NCBI GenBank assembly: GCA_026393675.1
Contig: JAPKZQ010000001.1
Span: 1-32,743, forward strand
DNA length: 32,743 nucleotides
Source: Acidobacteriota bacterium
GTDB taxonomy: Bacteria > Acidobacteriota > Vicinamibacteria > Vicinamibacterales > JAKQTR01
Direction of reading: 5' to 3'
Part shown: piece by piece, positions 29,302 to 32,743 of the stretch
Layout: the number at the start of each line of letters is the position of its first letter
Position numbering within the stretch: position 1 is the first letter of the stretch
Notes under the pieces: generated by a model
Database searches by the model: none
What the model was told of the DNA's origin: nothing
What the model saw: only the letters and a program-made list of their open reading frames with translations
Position numbers and translations under genes: made by a program

Positions 29302-31053
29302 GTGAGCTACGCCAACTCCCATCTCCTCTCGATCATTCTGTTCACCCCGCTTATTGGGGCTGCGCTGCTCCTGTTCGTGAGCCGGCAGCAGGCGAACCTC
29401 ATCCGGTGGATCGCGAACATCGTCGCGCTCATCGGGTTCGTGGTATCCCTGCCGCTGTGGTTCGCGTACGACCCGGCCGGCGCGCAGTTCCAGTTCGTCG
29501 AGCGGATGCCATGGATTCCGTCGATCGGGGCGGAGTACTTTCTGGGCGTGGACGGGTTCAGCGTGCTGCTGATCCTGCTGACGACCCTGATGGGCAGCAT
29601 CGCCATCCTGTCGTCGTGGACAGCCATCACCGAGCGGGTCAAGGAGTACTACATCTTCCTGCTCATTCTCCAGAGTGGGATGATCGGCGCCTTCGTGTCG
29701 CTCGACTTCCTGCTGTTCTTCCTGTTCTGGGAAGTGATGCTGGTGCCGATGTACTTCCTGATCGGCATCTGGGGCAGCGATCGCCGGCTCTACTCGGCCA
29801 TCAAGTTCTTCCTCTACACGCTGGTCGGCAGCGTGGTGATGCTGCTCGGCATCCTGGCGCTCTACTTCCACTATCACGAAGTGGCGCAGGTGTGGACGTT
29901 CGACATCACGAAGTACCAGGCGGCGAACATCCCGACCAATCTGCAGTGGTGGCTGTTCCTGGCGTTCTTCCTCGGGTTCTCCATCAAGGTCCCGATGTTC
30001 CCGTTCCACACGTGGTTGCCTGATGCGCACACCGATGCGCCCACGGCCGGGTCGGTGATTCTGGCGGCCATTCTCCTGAAGATGGGGACATACGGCTTCA
30101 TCCGGTTCAGCCTGCCGATCCTGCCCGACGCCTCGCGCACGTTCGTGCCGATGATGGTGACGCTCTCGATTATCGGCATCATCTACGGCGCGCTGGTCGC
30201 GATGGCGCAGAAGGACTGGAAGCGGCTGGTCGCCTACTCGAGCGTGAGCCACATGGGCATGGTGACGTTGGGCATGTTCGCGCTCAACCCGGTCGGCATG
30301 ACCGGCAGCATCATCCAGCAGTTGAATCACGGGATCTCGACCGGCGCCCTCTTCCTGATCGTCGGGATCGTCTATGAGCGGCGGCACACGCGCCAGATCT
30401 CCGAGTACAGCGGGCTGTCGAAGGTGATGCCCATCTATGCCGCCGTCTTCATGATCATGACGATGTCGTCGATCGGCCTGCCGACGTTGAACGGGTTCAT
30501 CGGCGAGTTCCTGATCCTGCAGGGCGCGTTTACCGCCAACATCTGGTGGGCGGTGGCGGCCGGAAGCGGCGTCGTGCTGGGTGCGGCCTACATGCTCTGG
30601 CTCTATCAGCGGACGATGTTCGGCAAGATCGAGAATCCGAAGAACGAGAATCTACCCGACCTGAACCTCCGTGAGTTCATGACCTTCGCGCCGCTCATCA
30701 TCCTGGCGGTGTGGATCGGCATCTATCCGACGCCGTTTCTCGAGCGAGTGGACCCGACCGTCAAGACGGTCATCGCACGGCTGAATTCGGCCTATGCGGC
30801 CCCGGCTCTGGCGAAGGCGGCGAAGCCCAAGGACTGCGGCGATGCGCAGGCCGCCAAGCCCGCCAACCCGTTCGTATCGATGGCGCCGTGCGATCCGGGG
30901 ATCGAAGGGGCCGCGAAGCCGGCAGTCAAGCCACCGGCGACCCCCGGCAAGCCTGCGAAAGACTCCGAGTCGAAAGGTGGTTCGAAGGAGCCTGCCCTGA
31001 GCGAGTCTGCGAAAGGGTCCGAGTCGAAGGGCCCGACCGGAGGGCGCGACTGA
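29302..31053 (+). CDS. nuoM: NADH-quinone oxidoreductase subunit M with extended C-terminal tail
   Basis: 583 residues (about 490-510 usual). The antiporter core is typical: FFLFWEVMLVPMYFLIGIWG (conserved Glu), GFSIKVPMFPFHTWLPDAHTDAPTAGSVILAAILLKMGTYG (Lys, His), KRLVAYSSVSHMGMV and NGFIGEFLILQGAF. After about residue 494 comes a non-membrane tail of 89 residues, Ala/Lys/Pro-rich then Ser/Glu/Lys-rich, with two Cys (C512 and one in SMAPCDPG) and the repeat-coded LSESAKGSESKG (566-577). Start GTG 29302 with AGGA 8 nt upstream. Its stop shares one base with the nuoN start. Confidence 0.93.
   Translation: MSYANSHLLSIILFTPLIGAALLLFVSRQQANLIRWIANIVALIGFVVSLPLWFAYDPAGAQFQFVERMPWIPSIGAEYFLGVDGFSVLLILLTTLMGSIAILSSWTAITERVKEYYIFLLILQSGMIGAFVSLDFLLFFLFWEVMLVPMYFLIGIWGSDRRLYSAIKFFLYTLVGSVVMLLGILALYFHYHEVAQVWTFDITKYQAANIPTNLQWWLFLAFFLGFSIKVPMFPFHTWLPDAHTDAPTAGSVILAAILLKMGTYGFIRFSLPILPDASRTFVPMMVTLSIIGIIYGALVAMAQKDWKRLVAYSSVSHMGMVTLGMFALNPVGMTGSIIQQLNHGISTGALFLIVGIVYERRHTRQISEYSGLSKVMPIYAAVFMIMTMSSIGLPTLNGFIGEFLILQGAFTANIWWAVAAGSGVVLGAAYMLWLYQRTMFGKIENPKNENLPDLNLREFMTFAPLIILAVWIGIYPTPFLERVDPTVKTVIARLNSAYAAPALAKAAKPKDCGDAQAAKPANPFVSMAPCDPGIEGAAKPAVKPPATPGKPAKDSESKGGSKEPALSESAKGSESKGPTGGRD
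30995..31030 (+). repeat. Interspersed 36-bp repeat, copy C (in nuoM)
   Basis: CCCTGAGCGAGTCTGCG, 9 bases, GAGTCGAAGG; identical to copy A outside the 9-base middle. Partial echoes (CCGAGTCGAAAGG at 30965-30977, TTCGAAGG at 30981-30988) lie just upstream. Confidence 0.7.
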
Positions 31054-32528
31054 TGCCAGCCTGGTTCTCGCCCACTGATCTGTATTACCTGCTGCCGGAG
31101 CTGGTGCTCACCGGCGCCACGCTGCTGCTGCTCATCGTGAACACGTTCACGCCGCGGCCGCGTCAGCGGTTTATGTCGTGGTTCGGCCTCGGGGCCCTTG
31201 TCGCGTCCGGCGTTGCGCTCGCGTCGGTGGCCGGTGGGCCGCCCTTGAGCCTCGCGCACGGCGTGGTCGCGATCGACGCGTTCGGGACGTTCTTCAAGGC
31301 CATCTTCCTGCTCTCCGCGGCGCTGACGCTGCTGATGTCGATGCGGTACCTCGATGTCGAGGGCGCGCGGCACGGCGAGTACGTCTTCATGGTGCTGTGC
31401 GCGACGATCGGCATGATGTTCATGGCCGGCGGCACCGACCTCATCACGCTGTTCATCGGCCTCGAGACGATGGCGATTGCCTTCTACATCCTGGCCGGGA
31501 TGCTCAAGACCAACCGCCTGTCGAACGAGGCGGCGGTCAAGTACTTCCTGCTGGGCACGTTCTCGCTCGGGCTGCTGTTGTACGGGATGTCGCTGCTGTA
31601 CGGGATGTCGGGCACCACCAACCTGCGCGCGCTGGCCATCAAGATCGCCGAGCATGGACGCGACCCGTGGCTTGTATTGGCCGTCATTCTCATCGTCGCC
31701 GGCATGGGCTTCAAGATTGCGGCCGTGCCGTTCCACATGTGGGCGCCGGATGTGTACGAGGGCGCGCCAACGCCGATCACCGCCTTCCTGTCTGTCGGTT
31801 CGAAGGCGGCCTCGTTCGCCATGCTGCTCAGGATCTTCATCGAAGGCCTGCCGTCGATGGCCGACGACTGGAAGGTCCTGTTCTATGCCCTGGCGATCGT
31901 CACCATGACGGTGGGCAACATCGCCGCGCTGACGCAAACCAATATCAAGCGCATGCTGGCGTACTCGTCGATCGCGCACGCCGGGTACCTGTTGATTGGC
32001 GTGGTCGCCGGCACGCCGCGTGGCGTCGCGGCCATGATGATCTATCTGGTGGTCTACGCCTTCATGCAGATCGGCGCCTTCGCCGTCGTCATCATGATGC
32101 GCCGTACGGACGCCATCGGCGACGAACTCAAGGACCTGAGCGGCCTGTATGCGCGCCAGCCGTTCGGCGCCCTGGCGATGCTCATCTTCATGCTGTCGCT
32201 TGGCGGGATCCCGCCGACCGCCGGCTTCATGGGTAAGTTCTGGTTGTTCAGCGCGGCCATCGATGCGCAGTACTACTGGCTGGCCGTCCTGGGCGTCCTC
32301 AACAGCGCCATCTCGCTCTACTACTACCTGCGCATTGTCGTGTACATGTTCATGAAGGGCGATCCCACCGGCTCTGATCCGAAGCCGGCACCCGCGCTGA
32401 CGGCGGTGCTGGTGGTCACGCTGGCCGCCACGATCATCCTTGGCGTCTACCCGCGCCCGTTGTTCGAGTTGGCGGAAGCGTCTGCCAAGACGCTCGGCGT
32501 TGTCGCTGCGGCCGCGACCCGGTTCTGA
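31053..32528 (+). CDS. nuoN: NADH-quinone oxidoreductase subunit N
   Basis: 491 residues, about 14 membrane helices. Third antiporter-like subunit: LFIGLETMAIAFYILAGMLK (conserved Glu), NEAAVKYFLLGTFSLGLLLYGMSLLYG (Lys), GFKIAAVPFHMWAPDVYEGAPTPITAFLSVGSKAASFA, NIKRMLAYSSIAHAGYLLIG and GIPPTAGFMGKFWLF. ATG 31053 lies in TGATG with the nuoM stop. It ends the operon; hairpins follow directly. Confidence 0.95.
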   Translation: MPAWFSPTDLYYLLPELVLTGATLLLLIVNTFTPRPRQRFMSWFGLGALVASGVALASVAGGPPLSLAHGVVAIDAFGTFFKAIFLLSAALTLLMSMRYLDVEGARHGEYVFMVLCATIGMMFMAGGTDLITLFIGLETMAIAFYILAGMLKTNRLSNEAAVKYFLLGTFSLGLLLYGMSLLYGMSGTTNLRALAIKIAEHGRDPWLVLAVILIVAGMGFKIAAVPFHMWAPDVYEGAPTPITAFLSVGSKAASFAMLLRIFIEGLPSMADDWKVLFYALAIVTMTVGNIAALTQTNIKRMLAYSSIAHAGYLLIGVVAGTPRGVAAMMIYLVVYAFMQIGAFAVVIMMRRTDAIGDELKDLSGLYARQPFGALAMLIFMLSLGGIPPTAGFMGKFWLFSAAIDAQYYWLAVLGVLNSAISLYYYLRIVVYMFMKGDPTGSDPKPAPALTAVLVVTLAATIILGVYPRPLFELAEASAKTLGVVAAAATRF

Positions 32529-32538
32529 GCGGAAAAGA

Positions 32539-32570
32539 AGGGGCCCGGCCCGGCTGCGAGGACGGCCCCT
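32539..32570 (+). terminator. Terminator-like hairpin after nuoN
   Basis: 7-bp stem AGGGGCC/GGCCCCT (32539-32545 with 32564-32570) with an 18-nt GC-rich loop, 10 nt past the stop; no T-run follows. Confidence 0.45.
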
Positions 32571-32571
32571 G

Positions 32572-32627
32572 GGATCGCCGGGCTCCAGCCCGGCATGGTC
32601 CGAAGCCACGCTGGAGCGTGGCGATCC
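32572..32627. repeat. REPIN-like pair of palindromes
   Basis: Two 18-bp palindromes, GCCGGGCTCCAGCCCGGC (32577-32594) and GCCACGCTGGAGCGTGGC (32605-32622), sit in opposite orientation (CTCCAG versus CTGGAG core) with 10 bp between. An outer 8-bp repeat GGATCGCC/GGCGATCC (32572-32579 with 32620-32627) closes both. The layout is that of a mobile REP doublet spread by a RAYT-type transposase; none is in view. Confidence 0.65.
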
Positions 32628-32743
32628 GTGCGCCTGTAAGTGTGCCATGACCCGAGAGGTGCAAGTCCTCTCCAGGCAAACGCTCTCCGGCCTGAAGCCG
32701 ACGATTACTGCGCCGCCGCGAGGCGGGGTGGGGAGCTATCGGA
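32628..32743 (+). mobile_element. Probable 5' end of a group II intron, cut by the window edge
   Basis: GTGCGCC at 32628 matches the conserved 5' end of bacterial group II introns. About 30 nt on, GAGAGG/CCTCTC closes a TGCAAGT loop, followed by CAGGCAAAC, comparable in position to the first small hairpin of domain I in known introns. GCCTGAAGCCGACGATTACTG follows. It starts exactly at the end of the hairpin pair behind nuoN. The reverse transcriptase and domains V-VI would lie beyond the window, so this rests on the 5' pattern only. Confidence 0.45.

Follow-up and report, generated by a model that had tools for sequence, protein, structure and literature searches.

A group II intron at REP ends in an Acidobacteriota draft genome: one hairpin and its GATCC foot as the insertion site

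What begins at the very end of this contig, and why does it sit directly against a palindrome? The DNA analysed here (the window, 32,743 nt) is the entire contig C1 of a 3.25-Mb Acidobacteriota draft genome in 46 contigs. Two opposed palindromes run up to position 32627, and an intron-like GTGCGCC begins at 32628; a sequence-only reading of this DNA had placed both there, as we confirm. It took the palindromes for a REPIN-like doublet and GTGCGCC for the start of a group II intron, the doublet being either the intron's target or part of a composite mobile unit. As a whole, that reading is partly supported: the intron 5′ end and a palindromic target stand, while the doublet as target and the composite unit do not. 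The explanation we prefer, and regard as very likely, is that a mobile group II intron (intron A) has retrohomed to one precise site within a REP, and that the last stretch of the window is its left end. The features at this end are the following.

31053..32528, + strand: nuoN, the last gene of the window, upstream of the REPIN (TIGR01770, 465.5 bits; cut-off 332.6)
32568..32594, - strand: first REP of the doublet, inverted; head CCTGGGATCGCC plus hairpin GCCGGGCTCCAGCCCGGC, a repeat family in the genome
32605..32622, + strand: second REP, the hairpin GCCACGCTGGAGCGTGGC; 5′ exon hairpin of intron A
32623..32627, + strand: REP foot GATCC, exon positions -5 to -1, invariant at 11 of 11 sites; putative IBS1
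32628..32743, + strand: first 116 nt of intron A (GTGCGCCTGTAAG...), truncated by the contig end and identical to the other copies over the letters shared

The nuoN start at 31053 is our own choice; the TIGR01770 match begins at residue 125 of a longer frame (30711-32528). The arms of the doublet (32572-32594 and 32605-32627) oppose each other over 23 nt with 83% complementarity, and each arm is also a perfect hairpin in its own right (32577-32584/32587-32594 and 32605-32612/32615-32622). They lie where the sequence-only reading put them, except that the doublet starts slightly earlier, with CCTGGGATCGCC from 32568. As single-stranded DNA, the whole doublet folds with -23.4 kcal/mol (z -4.6 against dinucleotide shuffles) and the second hairpin with -8.9 kcal/mol (z -4.2); the first hairpin alone is weaker by this standard (-9.4 kcal/mol, z -1.8, with 12 of 200 dinucleotide shuffles as good). 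Because these folding energies, the first hairpin alone excepted, clearly beat the shuffles, the doublet is not due to chance.

The doublet belongs to a dispersed family. The REP end CTGGAGNNNGGCGATCC occurs 110 times in the genome with up to one mismatch, a few of the one-mismatch occurrences looking like chance, while its reversed control occurs 0 times; a genome of the same genus has 21 occurrences against 3 for the control. Two RAYT genes score above the NCBIfam cut-off, with domain matches as follows.

C30:155557-155805: RAYT domain match
C39:46378-46695: RAYT domain match

The RAYT gene on contig C30 is flanked by REPs on both sides (155392, 156164, 156210 and 156264). The genome thus holds what defines a REPIN, namely two inverted REPs, many dispersed copies and a RAYT gene, and it shares with known REPIN/RAYT systems the inverted pairs in many copies and a RAYT gene among REPs. 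What sets it apart is the intron, an additional and independent element that feeds on REPs.

Is the junction at 32627/32628 peculiar to the window? The sequence-only reading had suggested looking for other copies and comparing their flanks. Clustering of 82 ends from 41 contigs yielded 11 ends with the 5′ end of intron A, every one of the 11 copies found in the draft lying at a contig end, and 7 ends with the matching 3′ end. The 11 contig ends are identical over the intron letters that they share, and all adjoin the same REP end without a gap (GGCGATCC/GTGCGCC), the REP hairpin, in the window's form or a variant, preceding each one, with differing sequence outside the REP. GTGCG at the 5′ end of all 11 copies agrees with the GUGYG of group II introns. 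From 32628 onward, the window matches a profile of related intron 5′ ends with an E-value of 4.2e-23 (next best place in the window, E 4.2); the window was one of six seeds of this profile, whose final alignment contains matches in other loci only. An Rfam scan of the whole window at the gathering threshold reported nothing, since no more than the intron's initial 116 nt lie within it. The contigs appear to break at the intron copies over about 141 identical bases, which looks like the assembler's word size, and a REP-targeting intron accounts for a draft genome that breaks at REPs. In a separate observation, the ends of contigs C2, C7 and C18 (L190, L192, L145 and L174) share, by eye, sequence like that of elongation factor Tu, as if two copies of this gene had broken the assembly.

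The 11 sites also show what part of the doublet the intron needs. Seven of them have an intact first REP upstream, and in the other four it is absent or broken. Since these four sites do without it, the target of intron A is a single REP hairpin with its GATCC foot and not the doublet; the proposal that the doublet is the target survives in so far as a palindrome is indeed the target, and one such hairpin suffices.

The right-hand side of the intron is seen elsewhere in the draft. Each of the seven 3′ ends of type A carries a domain V (RF00029, 52.4 bits against a gathering score of 40). They share one sequence as far as CCCCTAT, continue with CAGG (five) or CGGG (two) and then diverge; the terminal ...CCCCTAT before C(A/G)GG agrees with the AY of group II intron 3′ termini. 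The same four letters follow an empty REP. Of the 75 exact REP ends that were listed, 10 are filled, with GTGCGCC directly after them (an eleventh filled site carries one mismatch), and the 65 empty ones continue with CAGG (48), CGGG (13) or other letters (4). Because empty REP ends continue in this way, the pieces fit together in the order REP-GGCGATCC, intron, C(A/G)GG. On contig C30, an empty twin, GCGTGGCGATCC/CAGGCTCGACACCGATCAGACAGTTGGCA, matches a filled site ending CCCCTAT/CAGGCTCGACACCGATCAGACAGTTGGCA, and this uninterrupted twin fixes the 3′ junction of intron A. With domain V at seven matching 3′ ends and the junction repeated at 11 sites, the claim of a group II intron 5′ end is borne out. 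Filled ends made up 9 of 46 exact REP ends of the CGT variant and 1 of 29 of the CCC/CCT variants, a difference that is not significant (Fisher p 0.078).

The 5′ ends (11) and 3′ ends (7) were counted separately, and synteny connects a single pair of them. In G001, a genome of the same genus, nuoN is 87% identical in DNA to the window's nuoN. At 2.2 kb beyond it, a weak 185-base match (76%) to the C3 flank of the 3′ end L022 lies in the expected order and orientation downstream of nuoN, and a 2.2-kb match (82%) follows farther on, in the same order. On this gene order, the window's copy of intron A is probably joined to the 3′ end L022 on C3. Domain V is thus linked to the 5′ end of intron A through the empty site and synteny rather than on a single contig. 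The interior of intron A lies outside the readable assembly and might be in five contigs shorter than 3 kb that are N; the sole reverse transcriptase found in the readable part belongs to another intron, on C37.

Two other histories could have brought intron and REP together. In one, REPIN and intron would form a composite element that moves as a unit, and the two do adjoin at all 11 sites; yet most REPs, including 65 of the 75 exact ends, are empty, the sequence outside the REP differs from site to site, the first REP is missing or damaged at the four sites mentioned above, and the C30 empty twin is as expected if the intron entered a repeat that was already there. The composite unit advanced by the sequence-only reading is therefore extremely improbable. 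In the other, the copies would all go back to a single insertion, passed from REP to REP by recombination or gene conversion without renewed retrohoming. Copies identical over the parts seen, and REPs that could offer homology, would suit such a history. Conversion tracts would, however, be expected to carry the REP along, and the adjoining REPs differ (CGT, CCC and CTAGAG variants, with or without an intact first REP), while the 3′ flanks retain either CAGG or CGGG. We consider recombination quite improbable, and repeated retrohoming of intron A remains the preferred reading.

Intron A is not the only group II intron in this genome. A second high-copy intron, B (GTGCGCCGTGAAG...), has eight 5′ ends (at ends of contigs C14, C20, C33, C37, C38, C5, C8 and C9) and seven 3′ ends (C15, C23, C30, C34, C4, C6 and C8), whose pairing with each other is putative; L148 and L029-L035 are examples of intron B loci. 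It sits in an apparent dispersed repeat (...GCGTTTTG/CCGGCTYGYGTGAGCGGGGACGCGGAGGAACCGTC), an apparent empty copy of which lies in the L033 flank. A third intron (C37:2675-5749, L036) has its own reverse transcriptase of 440 aa and a match to RF02003 (D1-D4). Judged by eye, the sequences beside it look like integron attC sites. Finally, C12:1218-1310 (L037) matches domain V with 45.0 bits, its flanks being unlike those of intron A and not clearly those of intron B.

How widely is intron A distributed? Among the matches listed for 162 genomes of the order, the perfect REP-intron junction was found in no genome but the window's own. Of 396 genomes sampled across the phylum, 30 (its own among them) have a match to its 3′ end, and a 25-base exact search of viral contigs returned no match. 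Related introns are found much farther afield: a scan with the proteins of four relatives found 193 relatives, of which 80 were kept, in Acidobacteria, Planctomycetes, Verrucomicrobia, Proteobacteria, Nitrospirae and other phyla. The protein of one relative, L131 (463 aa), matches TIGR04416 (388.5 bits), PF00078 (RVT_1) and PF08388 (GIIM), and the domain search reported no endonuclease domain in it. The intron measures 1.85 kb in L131 and 1.90 kb in the Singulisphaera copy L243. A relative of only 744 nt (L125, G419:C6:71500-76000), which also lies after a strong hairpin, is too short for a reverse transcriptase and was possibly moved in trans.

Dispersed palindromic repeats are occupied by such introns also in Singulisphaera and in three other genomes. 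Singulisphaera sp. GP187 has at least ten intron copies, each after a REP-like element and with CGGCAT directly 3′ of the intron. Allowing one mismatch, its REP end occurs at 95 sites, 11 filled and 84 empty (control, 0), and 78 of the 84 empty ends continue with CGGC. All 11 filled ends of this genome (G516) lie on contig C5; C3 and C4 together hold 26 of the 95 sites. Further, a repeat TCCCGCNTNCGCGGGANTGA occurs in 10, 12 and 59 copies (one mismatch allowed) in three genomes, with one copy filled in each; the genome of L250 has 28 sites of the searched form, none of them filled. A Methylomonas target has four copies, one filled. Three of the five repeat-rich genomes have a single occupied copy; these repeat counts cover Singulisphaera, the TCCCGCNTNCGCGGGANTGA genomes and Methylomonas, out of 62 sites.

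These 62 sites are the distinct 5′ exons on which the choice of target by the family was studied. From 85 loci, the profile gave 74 matches in 73 loci. Fourteen were dropped for a cut 5′ flank or 5′ end, and L133 because it duplicates L287. Each set of identical 5′ exons was counted a single time, and the four 5′ ends already known from the window, L125, L132 and L122 brought the number to 62. The 40 nt upstream of these introns fold with a mean of -15.5 kcal/mol, against -8.3 kcal/mol in 454 control windows further upstream (p 2.7e-23, a nominal value for related sequences). In some cases a 40-nt fold drew in bases outside the hairpin, and the exons were therefore also scored for a plain stem: 55 of the 62 have one of 5 bp or longer whose end is no more than 8 nt from the intron, compared with 33% of letter shuffles, and 51 have one of at least 6 bp (letter shuffles, 15%). 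Without the Singulisphaera copies, the 5-bp stem was present in 46 of 53. Seven of the 62 exons lack it by this test.

Beside the hairpin, a short guide can be read from covariation in a non-redundant set of 52 introns, which leaves out the window, one identical intron and the additional Singulisphaera copies. Exon positions -1 to -5 covary, in antiparallel fashion, with five consecutive alignment columns that fall within intron nt 173-202, mostly at about 176. The mean Watson-Crick fraction of these pairs is 0.854, against a maximum of 0.496 in 200 shuffles of exons among introns. In 28 of the 52 introns all five pairs are Watson-Crick, the others having wobbles or mismatches, and a sixth pair is present in 19. 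There is no sign of EBS2-IBS2 pairing in the relatives: exon windows of five bases with starts from -6 to -14 give 0.34-0.41, which is below the shuffled level of the -1 window (0.46). In the relatives, the covarying positions are an EBS1-IBS1 pairing, with no sign of an EBS2. In intron A, EBS1 would be about GGATC, pairing with the GATCC foot of the REP.

The empty sites of Singulisphaera bear on this pairing. Of its exact REP ends, 11 are filled and 47 empty, and the pairable -4 base, a purine, is present in 10 of the 11 filled but 26 of the 47 empty ones (Fisher p 0.027 one-sided, 0.039 two-sided, in a test chosen once EBS1 had been identified). A version over all rows (10/11 vs. 41/84, p 0.008) was set aside as uneven, because in its filled rows the last pattern letter already took up the one mismatch permitted.

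To which class of group II intron does this family belong? Its mode resembles that of group IIC. Class C introns, in the sections cited, rely on EBS1 and EBS3, and they insert behind terminators or attC sites with an IBS1 of 3-4 bp (PMC7923331, PMC3522654, PMC4424553), a logic of hairpin plus short IBS1 without IBS2 (PMC7923331, PMC3522654). Intron A could then be an ordinary class C intron, with REPs acting as intrinsic terminators and the intron inserting after them as class C introns are known to do. The stem-loop directly upstream of IBS1, the lack of EBS2-IBS2 pairing as judged in the relatives, and, again in the relatives, a protein without an endonuclease domain are shared with group IIC, including IIC-attC, as the excerpts describe it. 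The targets, on the other hand, are dispersed and of REP type, a U-tract (at least five T in the last eight letters) is present in 0 of the 62 exons, and the pairing that covaries is 5 bp, sometimes six, rather than 3-4 bp. Moreover, the Rfam D1-D4 families gave no match at E 0.01 in seven loci with relatives, while the C37 intron does match one.

Against solved proteins, the L131 protein scores best (228 and 211 bits) with two reverse transcriptases that are named as IIC or that we take to be so, and lower with LtrA (147 bits) and the 6me0 maturase (145 bits), presumably IIA and IIB, respectively. These scores favour class C, but they do not decide the matter, because the protein of the C37 intron, which is unrelated, also ranks IIC proteins first. 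Taken with the exon evidence, an ordinary class C intron seems to us rather unlikely. Somewhat better placed, although still tentative, is the idea of a lineage outside class C, spread over many phyla, that has specialised on the hairpins of dispersed palindromes (a hairpin plus a guide of 5-6 bp) and parasitises the landing sites of RAYT/REPIN systems.

An open alternative for the class is class F, part of which comes from similar hosts: those of the relatives of intron A include Acidobacteria, Kuenenia and Brocadia, and those of the class F cluster are, we presume, in part Solibacter and Kuenenia. The cluster has So.us.I2, Ge.ur.I1, Pe.th.I2 and c-Ku.st.I1 as members, and the proteins of class F and of varieties g2-g5 carry no endonuclease domain, according to the parts of the reports cited (PMC3552965, PMC4244168). 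Class F and g2-g5 introns (Toro and Martinez-Abarca 2013; Toro and Nisa-Martinez 2014) thus share with the present family the missing domain and, in part, the kind of host; compared by description only, they differ in that the cited parts were not found to describe hairpin targeting.

Precedents for an intron beside such palindromes are few in the literature cited. Upstream stem-loops are said, in the excerpt, to have been reported for IIC introns only, and yet the same paper saw a group IIB intron, UHB.I2, after attC (PMC7923331). UHB.I2, a non-IIC intron, lies directly after a palindromic site, as the introns described here do; unlike them, it is a single case in an integron array, with poorly conserved exons and no repeat family, as far as the excerpt goes. 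REPs as DNA targets of mobile elements are known from REP-associated insertion sequences and from a Pseudomonas putida group II intron, two of nine copies of which lie at REPs in the cited section (Tobes and Pareja 2006, PMC1525189), in contrast to 11 of 11 copies here at one base of the REP end. This was the one report of a group II intron at REPs found in the open-licence PMC literature, to the extent that the texts were available; others may exist elsewhere. In our judgement, what is new about intron A is its target, the REP end; its life style is one already known for group II introns.

A route by which intron A would reach this target can be sketched. Its ribonucleoprotein would reverse-splice into a REP hairpin while that DNA is single-stranded, probably at a replication fork, and the nascent strand would prime cDNA synthesis, since the related proteins are without an endonuclease domain. 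The REPs themselves would be spread by RAYT transposases, so that new landing sites for the intron, presumably harmless and between genes, would keep arising. For the family of intron A, the finding means hairpin-guided targeting without U-tracts, with host repeats among the targets. With filled and empty natural sites side by side in one genome, the shares of the hairpin and of guide pairing in the choice of a site can be asked about directly, and the system lets one ask in what way a mobile element profits from the dispersal of a second one.
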